This document shows, one piece after another, positions 5,292 through 49,540 of a stretch of 64,000 nucleotides of DNA (its first letter is position 1; the number at the start of each line of letters is the position of its first letter). Where the stretch lies: the NCBI RefSeq assembly GCF_025136295.1, contig NZ_CP062788.1:3365588-3429587 (forward strand), in the 5' to 3' direction. The stretch comes from Aestuariispira ectoiniformans. Lineage in GTDB: Bacteria; Pseudomonadota; Alphaproteobacteria; UBA8366; Aestuariispiraceae. The translations under genes were made by a program, and so were the position numbers. Under the pieces are notes generated by a model. The model was not told where the DNA came from, did no database searches, and saw only the letters and a program-made list of their open reading frames with translations.

Positions 5292-5669
5292 ATGGCCGAC
5301 ATCATCAAAAAGCTGCCCGCCCGCCCCGCCGAACGCGCCCTGAAGGTTATCGGCGGACGTTGGAAGGTGGTGATTCTCTACCATCTTTTCGACCAGCCAA
5401 AGCGCTTGTCCGAGTTGAAACGACTGATCCCGGACATCAGCCAGAAGGTGCTGGTACAGCAACTCCGTGAAATGGAGGAGCACGGTATTGTCAGTCGCAA
5501 AGTCTTCGCGGAAGTCCCGCCCCATGTGGAATATTCCGCAACACCTTTGGGACTGAGCCTGGAACCGGTGTTGGTCGCGCTATGTGAATGGGGACAGCAT
5601 CACGCCGCCGAACTGGATGAGATTGAAGAATTGGCGGAATGCGTGATCACCCCCAGGGCAGAGGAATAG
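5292..5669 (+). CDS. HxlR-family transcriptional regulator
   Basis: A 125-residue winged-helix protein of the HxlR type. The core reads ALKVIGGRWKVVILYHL, then PKRLSELKRLIPDISQKVL (recognition helix), then EVPPHVEYSATPLG (wing), which is the family signature. These are dimeric, often redox- or electrophile-sensing regulators that control a divergent oxidoreductase. The partner is the MDR quinone oxidoreductase at 4210-5190, and the shared 5191-5291 region must hold both promoters. ATG 5292 is the start that fits the family; a weak longer reading back to TTG 5190 would cover the divergent promoter. No conserved cysteine is seen in the DNA-binding core. Confidence 0.85.
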   Translation: MADIIKKLPARPAERALKVIGGRWKVVILYHLFDQPKRLSELKRLIPDISQKVLVQQLREMEEHGIVSRKVFAEVPPHVEYSATPLGLSLEPVLVALCEWGQHHAAELDEIEELAECVITPRAEE

Positions 5670-39383: not shown

Positions 39384-40349
39384 TCAATAGCCGTGTTTTA
39401 CGCCGGGGCGCAGACGCTCGCGCAGGACTTCCCGCCGGAAACGGTAGAGTTTGGCCGGACGACCGCGCCCTTCGGCGAAAATTTCACCGGTTTCCTCCAC
39501 CAGGCCCTGCGCTTCGATCAGGCGTCGGAAATTCTGTTTATGCAGGCGTTTGCCAGCCAGCGCCTCGACGCAACGCTGAAGCTGCAACAGTGTGAATTTT
39601 TCCGGTAGAAGCTCGAAGACCACGGGGCGGAATTTAACCTTGCCGCGCAAACGCCCCATGGCGGTCGCCAGGATGCGGCGATGGTCATAAGCCATCACCT
39701 TGCCGGGCACCAAGGCCAGATTGGAGGGGATTGCCTCACCCCGGTCGCGCCAGGCTTCCTCAACGAGCCCCGCCTCATATAGCAGTTCATAGCGATCCAG
39801 TGCCCGGTCACTGTCCCAGACATCGCTGGCGAGACCAAAGACCTCATCCATACGATGCTGACGCTTGGCCTTGCCATCTGCTGTCGAGGCAGCATCCACC
39901 CAACCGGTAAGGGCTGGAAGGATCTGCGCCCTTAACATCGGCGGCTCACCGGCGCGCCAGTCCTCCCAGGGCAGGTAATCATACCAGCTTTCCCAGGTTG
40001 CATTGCCTGCCACCTGCCCCGCAGCCCGGGTCAGCGCCAGATAGCAGACCGAAATCACGCGGCCGCCATCCGTAAAGGCGGATTGATGCCGATCCCGGTC
40101 GCCAAAGGTGTAAAGCTGTTCCACATAGCCAAGAGGCTGTTTCGCCACCTCCTGCACCCAGGCCCGCAGGCCCTCTTCCAGGGTCCGGTGACGTTCCGTA
40201 TCCAACGGCCCGAAGGGCAAACCCACAGTCGGTTCAGTCGCGATATCAGTGAATTGACGCACGGTCATCACGCAGGGCGTCTCCGCCACCAGCGCCACAA
40301 CCACCACATTCAATCCGACGATAACCTGTTGGCTCACAACCCGTTCCAC
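39384..40349 (-). CDS. nadQ: NadQ-type NAD biosynthesis regulator (Nudix-like plus HTH)
   Basis: A 321-residue protein. The N-terminal domain resembles a Nudix hydrolase (VIVGLNVVVVALVAETPCVMTVRQ, LPFGPLDTERHRTLEEGLRAWV), and a YVEQLYTFGDRDRH segment follows. The C-terminal domain is winged helix (FTLLQLQRCVEALAGKRLHKQNFRRL). This matches NadQ (COG4111), predicted to repress NAD synthesis genes in alphaproteobacteria. Catalytic Nudix residues are not obvious. The start is GTG. nadABC lies 3.6 kb away, separated by feoAB. Confidence 0.85.
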   Translation of the reverse strand: MERVVSQQVIVGLNVVVVALVAETPCVMTVRQFTDIATEPTVGLPFGPLDTERHRTLEEGLRAWVQEVAKQPLGYVEQLYTFGDRDRHQSAFTDGGRVISVCYLALTRAAGQVAGNATWESWYDYLPWEDWRAGEPPMLRAQILPALTGWVDAASTADGKAKRQHRMDEVFGLASDVWDSDRALDRYELLYEAGLVEEAWRDRGEAIPSNLALVPGKVMAYDHRRILATAMGRLRGKVKFRPVVFELLPEKFTLLQLQRCVEALAGKRLHKQNFRRLIEAQGLVEETGEIFAEGRGRPAKLYRFRREVLRERLRPGVKHGY

Positions 40350-40553: not shown

Positions 40554-40694
40554 ATGAACAAGGTAACCTCCACACTCGCCAAAAAATCTTTGAGCCAGCC
40601 TTCCGCCGACGCGAAGAAAACGACACAGTTCAAGATCAAGCTGAGCCACGGCAAGGCATTCTGCGGCAAGCTGTGCATGCCGCTGCGCAACTGA
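40554..40694 (+). CDS. Small cationic Cys-containing peptide, possible modified-peptide precursor
   Basis: A 46-residue peptide starting at ATG 40554 with GGGAG at about 8 bp. It has nine Lys and one Arg, one Asp, and no signal peptide. The N-terminal ~30 residues are Ser/Thr/Lys-rich and leader-like. The C-terminal 15 residues are HGKAFCGKLCMPLRN, with a C-x3-C pair, a shape typical of a RiPP core. A hairpin (40726-40752) and a GRDP/DUF1399-like gene follow. The promoter region is AT-rich. It matches no family I can name; a stand-alone antimicrobial or metal-binding peptide are alternatives. Confidence 0.55.
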   Translation: MNKVTSTLAKKSLSQPSADAKKTTQFKIKLSHGKAFCGKLCMPLRN

Positions 40695-40725
40695 TCACGC
40701 GTTCATAAACGCCTCAGTTTGGTTA

Positions 40726-40752
40726 CCGGACGGGCTTACCAATCCCGTCCGG
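40726..40752 (+). other. Intergenic hairpin between peptide and DUF1399-like genes
   Basis: CCGGACGGG pairs perfectly with CCCGTCCGG around loop CTTACCAAT. There is no T-run, so it is more likely an RNA-stabilising or partial-termination structure, which would favour the upstream peptide mRNA over the downstream gene. Confidence 0.6.
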
Positions 40753-40796
40753 CGGCCTTGCCGAAGACTGTCGAACATTAGCGAGGGGAAACCTGC

Positions 40797-41282
40797 ATGG
40801 AATTGCTGGCCGTAGATGTGGAAGGCATTGAGGATAATCTCAGACTGCCTCTGAACCTGCAGGGCATTCGGTTTCTGGACCGGCTTGAAGACGCGAAGGA
40901 CTATATTTTCGGCATGGATATGTCGATGATCCTGTTCAAGATGACCAACGAGGAATCCGCAGGTGAACTGGGCCTTCTATGGGACAAGGAAGATGCTGAA
41001 TTCGCCATAGAGCAATACCGGCAGTATCTCTATCTCCTGCGCAAATACGATGCCGACATCTCCCCCACACTGGCGATCGACGCTGTCTGGCATAACCATA
41101 TCCTGGACACGCGCAAATATGTTGCCGATTGCCAGACGATCTTCGGCTTTTACCTGCATCACTTCCCCTATTTCGGCTCCAGAAGCCAGGAAGACAGGCG
41201 ACAGCTTGAACGAGCCTTTGAAAACACCAATCGCTTGTTCAAAGATGAATTCGGCATTGACCTGGCGACGGCAACGCCATGA
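40797..41282 (+). CDS. GRDP/DUF1399-like protein with WHxH motif
   Basis: A 161-residue protein. The central segment PTLAIDAVWHNHILDTRKYVADCQTIFG has the DxxWHxH signature (D95, W98, H99, H101) of the glycine-rich domain-containing (GRDP, DUF1399) family, followed by H121-H122 in LHHFPYFG. The four histidines and Asp could bind a metal. The N-terminal half is helical, with no signal peptide. ATG 40797 has GAGGGG upstream. It follows the small Cys peptide by 102 bp, so a joint function, such as peptide maturation or binding, is proposed. Confidence 0.7.
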   Translation: MELLAVDVEGIEDNLRLPLNLQGIRFLDRLEDAKDYIFGMDMSMILFKMTNEESAGELGLLWDKEDAEFAIEQYRQYLYLLRKYDADISPTLAIDAVWHNHILDTRKYVADCQTIFGFYLHHFPYFGSRSQEDRRQLERAFENTNRLFKDEFGIDLATATP

Positions 41283-45916: not shown

Positions 45917-48900
45917 GTGCAGACATTTATTGAGAACACAATTGGCCGGCGCTTCTTTGGCGGACAGCCTGCAGTGCGCTTGATTGCAATTGCAGTAACA
46001 TATTTCCTGCTGGGTTATGTGGGATTGCAGCTACCCTATTACGGCACAACAGTGACACTGGTCTGGGCACCTGCCGGGGTCGCCCTGGCGGTTATGTTGC
46101 TGTATGGCTATCGAATCTGGCCAGCCGTCTATCTGGGCGCCCTTCTGGTTAATTTCACGACCGATACCCCCGCCCTGACCAACATCATGATTGCCGCGGG
46201 TAATACGCTGGCCGCCGTGACCGGCACCTGGCTGTTGCGCACTTTCAAGCAGGATGGACGCCTCACTCACAGCGTCAATCTTCTGCTTTTCATCCTGCTC
46301 GGTGCAGTCATCAGCCCTTTGATCGCCGCAGTAAACGGGGCGCTCACCCTTTGCCTGACCACCGGAACCGGCTGGGGGGAATTTCTGACGATCGTCCAGG
46401 GCTGGTGGCTGGGCGATGGTGTCGGTGTCCTGTTCTTCGGACCCTTCACCCTGCTTGCCCTCACCCACCCCTGGCGAAGCATGTCGCGTACCTGGTATCT
46501 GGAAGGCCTTGTCCTCCCTGCGACCGCCGGTCTGGCCTCCCTGCTGATCCACAACGCGGAATCCTTCGCCAGCCCGGAGATTCTATACCTTTTCGGGATC
46601 ATCCCCTTTCTCGTCTGGGCTGCTGTTCGCTGTGGCCTGTTGGGCGTTGCCGCCATCAATGCGCTCTCTGTCGCGATTGCCATTTTCATGATGTCACGCG
46701 GCACCTCTGCCGTCTTCAGCAACGACGACATACAGGGCAATATCCGTGAACTTTATAATTTCCAGATCGTCATCGCAGTGGCCAGCTTTCTGGTCGCCGC
46801 CTACGTACAACGCAAAACCTCGACCATAATCAATCTGGCCGGCCCTCTGGAGAGCGACACCGGGCGAGGCACTTCTTCCCATATCCTGACCATCGGCGCG
46901 GCCGTTGTCGGGATCGCCCTGTCAGTCGCAGCCTCCCTGGTTGCACTGGAGCAAATCGACCACACGCAGGCAGAAAATGCCCTTGAGCAGGCGCAGAGAC
47001 TTGAAGGCACAATTCGCCATGAGGCGGACCTTGTGATAGCGCCGCTCTTTACAATCAAGACATTGTTTGAAACACAGAAAGAGGTAACCCGCGAAAGTTT
47101 CGAAACCTATATCGCGCCCTGGGTCGACAAAACCCCGACCGTTGCCGCCCTTGAATGGGTCGCACGCGTTCACCCGGGTGACAGAGACGCCTTTGAAAAG
47201 AAAATGCGGCAACTCGGCTACAAGGACTTCCAGATTACGGAAAAAGTGGATGGCAAACTGGTTCGCGCACCGGCGCGCGATATCTATTTCCCAGTGACCT
47301 ATGTCGTTCCCTATGCCCCCAATGCGCCTGCGCTCGGCTATGCGCCGGACAATCTGGAAACACGACGCAACGCCATCAAACAGGCGCTGAGCAGCGGTGA
47401 CGTTGCTATGTCCAACGTCATTTCCCTGGTCCAACAAAAGAAAACGCACAACGGCCTGCTCGTCTTCCTCCCCACCTTTTCCAGCCCGGCACCGGACGGA
47501 ACCCGGATCAATACCGGCTTTGCGCTGGGCATCTACGATTTGGATATTTTTTTCGAGCATTTATTCCAACGGCTGCCAGCCGCGAAAAAGCTCAATATCC
47601 GTATCGTGGATTATGAAGACGGCAATAAAGAACGCCTCCTCTACAACAGCGCGCCTACCCCGGACCAACATCAAGAGTTTTTCCTGGGCCATGAGGATCA
47701 CCTGGCCCAGCTCGACATGGTTTTGGCCGGGCAGCGTTGGCGTATAGATGTCGATTCCAAACAATTTGGCCAGTTGCATGGGGTGCCTTATGAAGTGGTC
47801 GGCATACTGCTCCTCGGGTTACTTCTCACCACGGCGCTAACCGTTTATTTCCATACCCTGCATCGCCGCCGCGATGAGGTGCAGGCCCTGGTGGAAATCC
47901 GCACCCGGGAACTGTATGAGGCAAAGTCCGAAGTGGAATCGGCTTTGCTGAGCGCGCGCGAGGCAAACAAGGCCAAAAGCCTGTTCCTCGCCCAGATGAG
48001 CCATGAATTGCGAACGCCGCTCAACGCGATCATAGGTTATGTGGACCTGATCCGCAGCCACCCTCACGGCCCCCTGGGGCATACCATGTACGAAGAATAC
48101 CTGGGTCACGTGAAAAAGGCGGGAAAACATCTGCACGACCTCATCGGTGATGTCCTGGACATGGTCAAAATCGAGACAAAAAATCTCGAGTTGGAGCACA
48201 TTTCCTTCCGGTTGACCGAGATTCTCGACGAATTGCGCAGCGTCTTTTCCATATCCGCAGCAGAACGGAACAACCACCTTTCCCTCCTGATCGACAGCAC
48301 CATCTGTGAGGGGTACCTGGGAGACCCGACACGTCTGCGCCAGATTTTGAGCAATCTTCTGTCCAACGCGGCCAAATTCACCGAAAATGGGAACATAACC
48401 CTGCGCGTGGAAACCCTGTCGGATATGCGTAATGCACAACGCCTGAAAATATCCGTGACCGATACCGGTATTGGCATTGAGCCGGGTCAGATTGCACGGC
48501 TGTTTGAAAACTTCACGCAGGCAGACAGCTCAATCCGACGCCGTTACGGCGGCTCAGGCATGGGGCTGGCAATCAGCAAACGTCTGACCCAGGCAATGGG
48601 CGGCAACATCGGTGTCGACAGTATACCAGGCCAGGGCAGCACCTTCTGGATTACCCTTACTCTGGACAAGGCCTCCGCGGCACAGAATGCGCAGGCGACA
48701 GAAGACGACGCCGACAGCCTGCGCCCGCTGACCCTGCTTCTGGCGGATGACGTTGCCATTAACCGCGCATTGACCACCAATCTGCTGGCAACCCGCGGCC
48801 ATCACACGGACACGGCCAGCAATGGCATCGAGGCGCTCGAGGCGGTAAAGCACAAAACCTACGACGCCATTCTGATGGACATCCATATGCCGGAGATGGA

Positions 48901-49540
48901 CGGCATGGAGGCCACGCAGGCAATCCGCGCCCTGGCAGACCCGGAACGGGCACAGATACCGATCATCGCCCTGACTGCCGATGTGGATAAGGATAAAATC
49001 CGGCAATATAAAGCCAGCGGCATGGATGACATATGCCCGAAACCACTGGACATTGAAAAACTGCAGGACGCCCTGCGCCATGTTGTCGGCGACGGACCGG
49101 CCGCAATGCCGGGCAATGGCCCGGAAGCAGCCTCCGCCAAAGCTCTGGAGATGGACAATAGCGCAGGCATAACGCCAGACGTTAACACTCTGGCGATCAA
49201 CGATGACACACTGAAAATGGCCCTGGAAATGGTGCCTGACGCAGCAGCCCTATTCGAACAGGAAGGCAGCAAGCAGATACAGATGATGCGAAACGCAATT
49301 ACCAATGAGAACTGGTCCCAACTTGCCCGCGCGGCCCACACCTTGAAAGGCGTTGCCGGCAATATTGGCCTGACGGGACTAAGTCGGGAATGTCAGGCCC
49401 TGCAAAGCCAGGCATCCAACGCCGAACAAGGCACAAAACCCGATGCGGAGTCCACCGTAATCCAGCATCAGTTCGACCGCATCGAACAGGGCTACCGATC
49501 AGCCAACATCCATATCAGGAACATCGGAACGGCAGCCTGA
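45917..49540 (+). CDS. Hybrid sensor histidine kinase (MASE1-CHASE-HisKA-HATPase-REC-HPt)
   Basis: A 1207-residue multidomain kinase. Residues ~15-310 form the MASE1 membrane module (eight helices, LVWAPAGVALAVMLLYGYR). Residues ~335-620 are a CHASE periplasmic sensor. HisKA has H696 (MSHELRTPLNAIIGY). HATPase has the N-box (NLLSNAAKF), DTGIGI and GGSGMGLAI. REC has phospho-acceptor D988 (LMDIHMPEMDG). HPt has H1141 (AAHTLKGVAG). It should sense an extracytoplasmic cue and relay phosphate His-Asp-His to an unknown response regulator. The start is GTG 45917 with a poor ribosome-binding site. Confidence 0.92.
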   Translation: MQTFIENTIGRRFFGGQPAVRLIAIAVTYFLLGYVGLQLPYYGTTVTLVWAPAGVALAVMLLYGYRIWPAVYLGALLVNFTTDTPALTNIMIAAGNTLAAVTGTWLLRTFKQDGRLTHSVNLLLFILLGAVISPLIAAVNGALTLCLTTGTGWGEFLTIVQGWWLGDGVGVLFFGPFTLLALTHPWRSMSRTWYLEGLVLPATAGLASLLIHNAESFASPEILYLFGIIPFLVWAAVRCGLLGVAAINALSVAIAIFMMSRGTSAVFSNDDIQGNIRELYNFQIVIAVASFLVAAYVQRKTSTIINLAGPLESDTGRGTSSHILTIGAAVVGIALSVAASLVALEQIDHTQAENALEQAQRLEGTIRHEADLVIAPLFTIKTLFETQKEVTRESFETYIAPWVDKTPTVAALEWVARVHPGDRDAFEKKMRQLGYKDFQITEKVDGKLVRAPARDIYFPVTYVVPYAPNAPALGYAPDNLETRRNAIKQALSSGDVAMSNVISLVQQKKTHNGLLVFLPTFSSPAPDGTRINTGFALGIYDLDIFFEHLFQRLPAAKKLNIRIVDYEDGNKERLLYNSAPTPDQHQEFFLGHEDHLAQLDMVLAGQRWRIDVDSKQFGQLHGVPYEVVGILLLGLLLTTALTVYFHTLHRRRDEVQALVEIRTRELYEAKSEVESALLSAREANKAKSLFLAQMSHELRTPLNAIIGYVDLIRSHPHGPLGHTMYEEYLGHVKKAGKHLHDLIGDVLDMVKIETKNLELEHISFRLTEILDELRSVFSISAAERNNHLSLLIDSTICEGYLGDPTRLRQILSNLLSNAAKFTENGNITLRVETLSDMRNAQRLKISVTDTGIGIEPGQIARLFENFTQADSSIRRRYGGSGMGLAISKRLTQAMGGNIGVDSIPGQGSTFWITLTLDKASAAQNAQATEDDADSLRPLTLLLADDVAINRALTTNLLATRGHHTDTASNGIEALEAVKHKTYDAILMDIHMPEMDGMEATQAIRALADPERAQIPIIALTADVDKDKIRQYKASGMDDICPKPLDIEKLQDALRHVVGDGPAAMPGNGPEAASAKALEMDNSAGITPDVNTLAINDDTLKMALEMVPDAAALFEQEGSKQIQMMRNAITNENWSQLARAAHTLKGVAGNIGLTGLSRECQALQSQASNAEQGTKPDAESTVIQHQFDRIEQGYRSANIHIRNIGTAA

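Follow-up and report, generated by a model that had tools for sequence, protein, structure and literature searches.

The locus raises the question why a gene for a DUF1399/GRDP-like protein is preceded by a short ORF for a cysteine-bearing cationic peptide, and whether the two products act together. It lies in a window of 64,000 nt from Aestuariispira ectoiniformans (the window being the whole stretch of DNA that was analysed), for which an earlier note had proposed a minimal RiPP or peptide-metal system made up of a 46-residue peptide, a 9-bp hairpin without a T-run and a DUF1399/GRDP-like gene. We find all three elements as claimed, as ORFs, as an inverted repeat and by the WHxH and HH motifs (Table 1). 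The unit probably belongs to a RiPP-like family as a pair of precursor and partner, the GRDP-like protein handling, and probably modifying, a cysteine core supplied in trans or in cis.

Table 1 Features of the two-gene unit and a sensor gene in the window
Feature	Coordinates	Strand	Remarks
46-aa precursor-like peptide	40554..40694	+	basic Ser/Thr-rich first part; invariant KAFCGKLC in C-terminal part; conserved in 7 loci; start codon kept
Perfect 9-bp hairpin, no T-run	40726..40752	+	stems 40726-40734 / 40744-40752, 9-nt loop; gap between the two genes
161-aa GRDP-like (DUF1399-type) protein	40797..41282	+	PF07173-like; candidate partner or maturase; without a Cys tail of its own
MASE1-CHASE-histidine kinase-receiver-Hpt sensor	45917-49540	+	4.6 kb downstream of the pair

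Conservation of the peptide and its partner gene

The ATG of the peptide ORF is preceded by 'cagggagaaataca' and the product reads MNKVTSTLAKKSLSQPSADAKKTTQFKIKLSHGKAFCGKLCMPLRN; the 161-aa protein carries the motifs DAVWHNHILDT and LHHFPYFG. Both neighbours of the pair, a gene for an NrtR-type regulator and a gene read as PHA depolymerase, are encoded on the opposite strand, and the peptide/GRDP-like unit therefore stands alone. Within the window no exporter or protease gene adjoins it, and a search of the + strand ahead of the peptide gave no promoter-like site. The peptide matched no curated family, and PADLOC and PHROGs gave no match for the unit, so that an identity as a defence or phage protein was dropped. 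The closeness of the CHASE-containing sensor gene to the pair is probably a coincidence, because none of the neighbouring genes checked in close relatives encodes a CHASE domain.

We searched 59 genomes (the window's own and 58 relatives) and obtained strong peptide matches in two of them, the own genome and one of another genus, and it is also in these two that the close form of the partner gene occurs. Scanning a genome collection gave 527 relatives of the GRDP-like protein, 80 loci of which were listed. Among the matches listed, the six nearest relatives share 66–73% identity with the window protein and come from Kiloniella (two), Aestuariispira, Marinomonas (two) and a Saccharospirillaceae bacterium; in all six a 46–47-aa peptide with KAFCGKLC is encoded upstream of the GRDP-like gene. 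The peptide thus stands beside the GRDP-like gene in 7 of 7 window-type loci, which span the Alpha- and Gammaproteobacteria and form one group in the tree (SH-aLRT 98).

The seven peptides further show where selection has acted. Across them KAFCGKLC, usually followed by MP, has a pN of 0 at a pS of 0.94, with synonymous sites near saturation, and pN/pS amounts to 0.25 in the last 18 codons compared to 0.50 in the first part. Retention of the peptide next to DUF1399-like genes in related species and constraint on its C-terminal end, the two points on which the earlier note had staked its reading, are therefore both borne out. A short peptide that lacks a curated family match might still be a chance reading frame ahead of an ordinary hypothetical gene, but start codon and core are kept across two proteobacterial classes, and we regard this reading as refuted by conservation and pN/pS, leaving it practically no probability. 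Since the peptide occurs in all six closest relatives and its core is invariant at near-saturated synonymous sites, the pair is not a product of chance: it is evidently real, conserved and linked. Two marks of a RiPP system are present, (i) a short ORF with a variable leader part and a conserved core and (ii) a precursor kept beside its partner gene while the flanking genes differ from genus to genus. A linked known maturase was not found; the window-type group keeps only the GRDP-like gene beside the peptide.

Cysteine segments in trans and in cis

Judged by sequence comparison, the window pair belongs to a wider family, many members of which have the cysteine part fused to the GRDP-like protein. 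The pairing that had struck the earlier note as unusual is indeed without a description in the literature searched, but it is not isolated. Most of the bacterial GRDP-like proteins found carry a C-terminal Cys-containing extension, and cysteine makes up 8.1% of 59 such tails compared to 1.35% of neighbour ORFs. The commonest cysteine context in the tails is A-[W/Y/F]-C-[S/A/G], in many cases with periods of 7–16 residues, and units such as AAWCSLEAGKP, NAFCGAPEKQA, AYCGAA, AYCARVA and AMCGVAVT occur in up to about 12 copies, often 5–12. Short tail ends such as CRTACKPMKCR and CWHDCENRCWHACSD are also found. The A-F-C-G of the window peptide is itself one A-[W/Y/F]-C-[S/A/G] unit and recurs as AFCG in two tails (L032, L070). 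A tailless Nonomuraea protein (L025, 4704-5393) has four near-perfect N-terminal repeats with ADRCAVAFE, and an MFS gene follows. In later samples, drawn from the class and the phylum, cysteine lies within the last 25 residues in 41 of 50 loci, compared to 31% of the neighbour ORFs of the first set; the 50 include near-duplicates and one locus that is probably a false match. A model of a fused member leaves the tail disordered (pLDDT under 50) and is uninformative on docking between tail and domain. Two further arrangements were observed: seven GRDP-like proteins ending in CWHDCxxRCWHAC (L043, L046, L048, L073, L078, L088, L091) all have a related short gene upstream, the one scanned encoding a TauD-type dioxygenase, and one genome (G599) has two GRDP-like matches in tandem, separated by some 1.5 kb, whose long tails consist of AYCAGPHIG repeats (L124 and L150).

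Loci without a tail frequently encode the cysteine segment separately. A small Cys-ended ORF, defined by an ATG behind a Shine-Dalgarno-like site, a length of 20–70 aa and a Cys among the final 20 residues, lies within 420 bp upstream in 22 of 31 tailless loci, where shuffling predicts 3.6 and the reverse strand yields 2. This count is not fully blind, because the data had been looked at once before the rule was drawn up. The better control is given by the tailed loci, where such an ORF is present in 3 of 57 (expectation 4.6); some loci are closely related, and the counts are to that extent not fully independent. Two Kiloniella peptides lie farther upstream than the rule allows and raise the 22 to 24 if counted. 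A peptide ending in ...GGGGHCQGGGGW or a near variant is found in Pseudomonas, Halomonas, Yersinia and a Legionellaceae bacterium; other separate peptides end in ...AARCMFE (Moraxella), ...FVTCHAGCMFENRF (Endozoicomonas) and ...MRCDCIGIGPV (Nocardia). Several members have neither a tail nor a recognised peptide (e.g. L028, L030, L049, L061, L069, L102, L107, L108). In the tree, the trans form falls mostly into one clade, and the arrangement has changed at least nine times overall. Because the cores differ greatly among subfamilies (KAFCGKLC, HCQGGGGW, RCMFE, A-W-C-S repeats), one shared chemistry is not assured.

Most two-gene loci have a strong hairpin of unrelated sequence in the gap between the peptide and GRDP-like genes, with z-scores of −5.3 in Legionellaceae, −5.0 in Moraxella, −5.9 in Endozoicomonas, −5.8 in Nocardia and about −4 in Pseudomonas; the exceptions are Piscirickettsia, which has no gap hairpin, and two loci with hardly any gap. 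In the window, the arms CCGGACGGG and CCCGTCCGG form a perfect inverted repeat, and the 102-nt gap folds with −35.1 kcal/mol (z −1.6), weaker than the gap hairpins scored above. No known RNA element was matched by Rfam between positions 40000 and 41500. Hairpins are common after the small precursor genes of bacteriocin-type operons, and by this analogy the gap hairpin may favour precursor over partner mRNA.

Among the neighbouring genes scanned in other loci, transporters and oxygenases predominate. Ten loci, most of them of the HCQGGG type, share a transporter-like gene downstream; two of these genes were scanned, one of which encodes a clear MatE protein and the other has no Pfam match. MFS genes come next in three other loci. 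In 16 of 88 loci, mainly of Burkholderiales, a CHASE sensor gene lies directly beside a GRDP-like gene with an A-[WYF]-C repeat tail (L016, L031, L032, L034, L039, L050, L051, L057, L064, L066, L070, L072, L080, L084, L086, L096); the CHASE genes scanned encode histidine kinases or GGDEF-EAL proteins. This adjacency suggests that some GRDP-associated products are sensed outside the cell. On a Halomonas plasmid, genes for LuxR and an acyl-homoserine-lactone synthase adjoin a unit of peptide, GRDP-like and transporter genes (L010, 1086-4805), and in Nocardia (L068) the GRDP-like gene is followed by a gene (directly after position 5411) for a 471-aa protein with an HETGH motif that ends in CHARCR and has no Pfam match.

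The GRDP-like domain and competing explanations

The window protein matches the Pfam family PF07173 (GRDP-like) weakly, with an E-value of 5.5e-4 and 21.1 bits, below the cut-off of 22.7, and 56 of 67 aligned family sequences match it at E up to 0.01. The WHxHxLD and HHxPY signature is common to the window protein and its relatives, and D95, W98, H99, H101, L103, D104, Y108, D111, H122, P124 and Y125 are invariant over the 67 sequences. The predicted structure of the 161-aa protein is all-helical and confident (pLDDT 91.5) and places the conserved residues in two consecutive helices and the loop after them, where the His/Asp/Tyr set could form a metal-type site. Foldseek found no match to this model in the PDB at E up to 0.001, the best VIA-align hit reached Z 3.0, and a sequence search of solved structures returned a single match with E 0.95. 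The Foldseek and VIA-align matches are weak, scattered and helical; we thus assign no known fold, and this absence does not show a new one, as a close relative may belong to families outside those sets. The domain also matched no known RiPP maturase family. Since neither a maturase match nor a close solved relative guides the assignment, catalysis by the GRDP-like domain is a guess. To our knowledge, no biochemical role has been assigned to the window protein or to the plant protein AtGRDP2.

We propose the following mechanism. The 46-aa ORF would encode a ribosomal precursor with a variable basic leader-like part and the conserved Cys core KAFCGKLC. The GRDP-like protein would recognise this core and most likely modify it, and its invariant His/Asp/Tyr residues would provide an active site of the metal type. 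Recognition of the Cys segment by the domain is the simplest account of the cis/trans exchange: relatives present the same kind of core as a fused tail, often in 5–12 copies, or once N-terminally, while the window unit and its nearest relatives present it in trans. The hairpin behind the precursor gene may keep precursor mRNA above partner mRNA, and in other members, unlike in the window, an adjoining MatE or MFS exporter could release the product. The recurrent hairpin, the exporters of other members and the cis/trans swap fit a RiPP-like system, and they strengthen that half of the earlier proposal of a minimal RiPP or peptide-metal system, which is weakened in turn by the lack of a linked known maturase.

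The same data also allow a reading in which nothing is modified. The GRDP-like domain and the peptide or tail would then act together as a binding unit: either a metal or redox site would be completed by the thiols, or the protein would be under the control of the peptide, and the trans form would amount to one protein split in two. The Cys and His residues found in tails and in separate peptides (HCQGGGGW, CWHDCxxRCWHAC, CRTACKPMKCR), the conserved His/Asp set and the absence of a known modifying enzyme conserved beside the window-type pair all agree with it, as does the Gly-rich, Cys-containing C-terminal region of AtGRDP2 (PMC4299439). Yet the long arrays of near-identical A-W-C-S units and the MatE or MFS exporters that adjoin some loci suit precursors with repeated cores better, and a hairpin after the small ORF suggests a peptide made in excess. 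Repeated cores, exporters and hairpin appear to tip the balance towards a modified peptide and away from a simple metal or thiol site, and we consider the unmodified binding unit rather unlikely.

Alternatively, the modification could be carried out by an MNIO (DUF692) enzyme whose gene lies elsewhere, and the GRDP-like protein would serve as partner or carrier. TIGR04222 proteins with Ser/Gly/Cys-rich tails are often encoded beside MNIO genes and have been proposed as their substrates (PMC12452194), a TIGR04222 domain is also fused to one of the GRDP-like proteins, and a single MNIO (PF05114) gene (G000:C1:365821-366615) is present in the window genome. That gene lies megabases from the pair, however, and MNIO genes are missing from Aestuariispira and the two Kiloniella genomes, where close relatives of the pair occur, as well as from 13 of the 24 genomes searched; GRDP and DUF1399 are unmentioned in PMC12452194. 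The absence from these three genomes and the lack of linkage in the window genome argue that the window-type pair is independent of MNIO and make a dependence improbable. Still less probable is a peptide that acts alone as a cationic antimicrobial or toxin-like agent, with the GRDP-like protein as immunity protein or antitoxin. The small size and basic character of the peptide, its tight linkage to a partner gene and the related units on Halomonas and Pseudomonas plasmids would suit such a pair, but a fusion of the Cys part to the GRDP-like domain in most members would be odd for toxin and immunity protein, and the defence and phage searches described above found no match.

Relation to known systems

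In the literature searched, which largely leaves subscription journals outside, we found no link of DUF1399, PF07173 or GRDP to RiPPs, no account of GRDP-like proteins with small Cys peptides and no mention of HCQGGG, which does not by itself establish novelty. We know of no modified product of a GRDP-like system. Together with the precursor/partner reading, this points to a family of ribosomally made, probably modified Cys peptides that is undescribed in the literature searched. Whether the family amounts to a new and widespread class of ribosomal peptides, in which GRDP-like domains modify a Cys (often aromatic-Cys) core in a fused array or a separate precursor, we can propose only tentatively; the Burkholderiales products might then be extracellular signals. 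A domain of unknown function in bacteria and plants is thereby given a concrete, testable role, namely to handle peptide segments that contain Cys, whether fused or separate. If it modifies the core, it would represent a new peptide-modifying family with hundreds of ready substrates (527 relatives from one scan), in many of which the core is repeated. The two-gene form of the window would then be a minimal system for an assay.

Compared with RiPP precursor/maturase pairs, the window unit shares the small leader-plus-core ORF, the conserved core, the linked partner and the hairpin, with exporters in some loci, but its partner lies outside the RiPP enzyme families known to us. The cis forms resemble borosins and BURP-domain peptides in that core repeats are fused to a globular domain that possibly acts on them, although no methyltransferase or BURP domain was seen in the GRDP-like forms. 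Cys-rich low-complexity segments like those of the GRDP-like tails also occur in bufferins and TIGR04222 proteins, which are MNIO-modified or proposed to be so (PMC12452194), whereas the window-type pair is found in genomes without MNIO. The closest named family is that of the plant proteins AtGRDP1 and AtGRDP2 (GRDP-like/DUF1399, PF07173), known mainly from plants. AtGRDP2, whose C-terminal Gly-rich region has interspersed cysteines, follows the same order of parts as the bacterial fused forms, the domain first and the Cys-bearing end last (PMC4299439); it is long (787 aa) and contains an RNP-1 motif, whereas the window protein consists of one short domain, with its Cys segment on a separate peptide.
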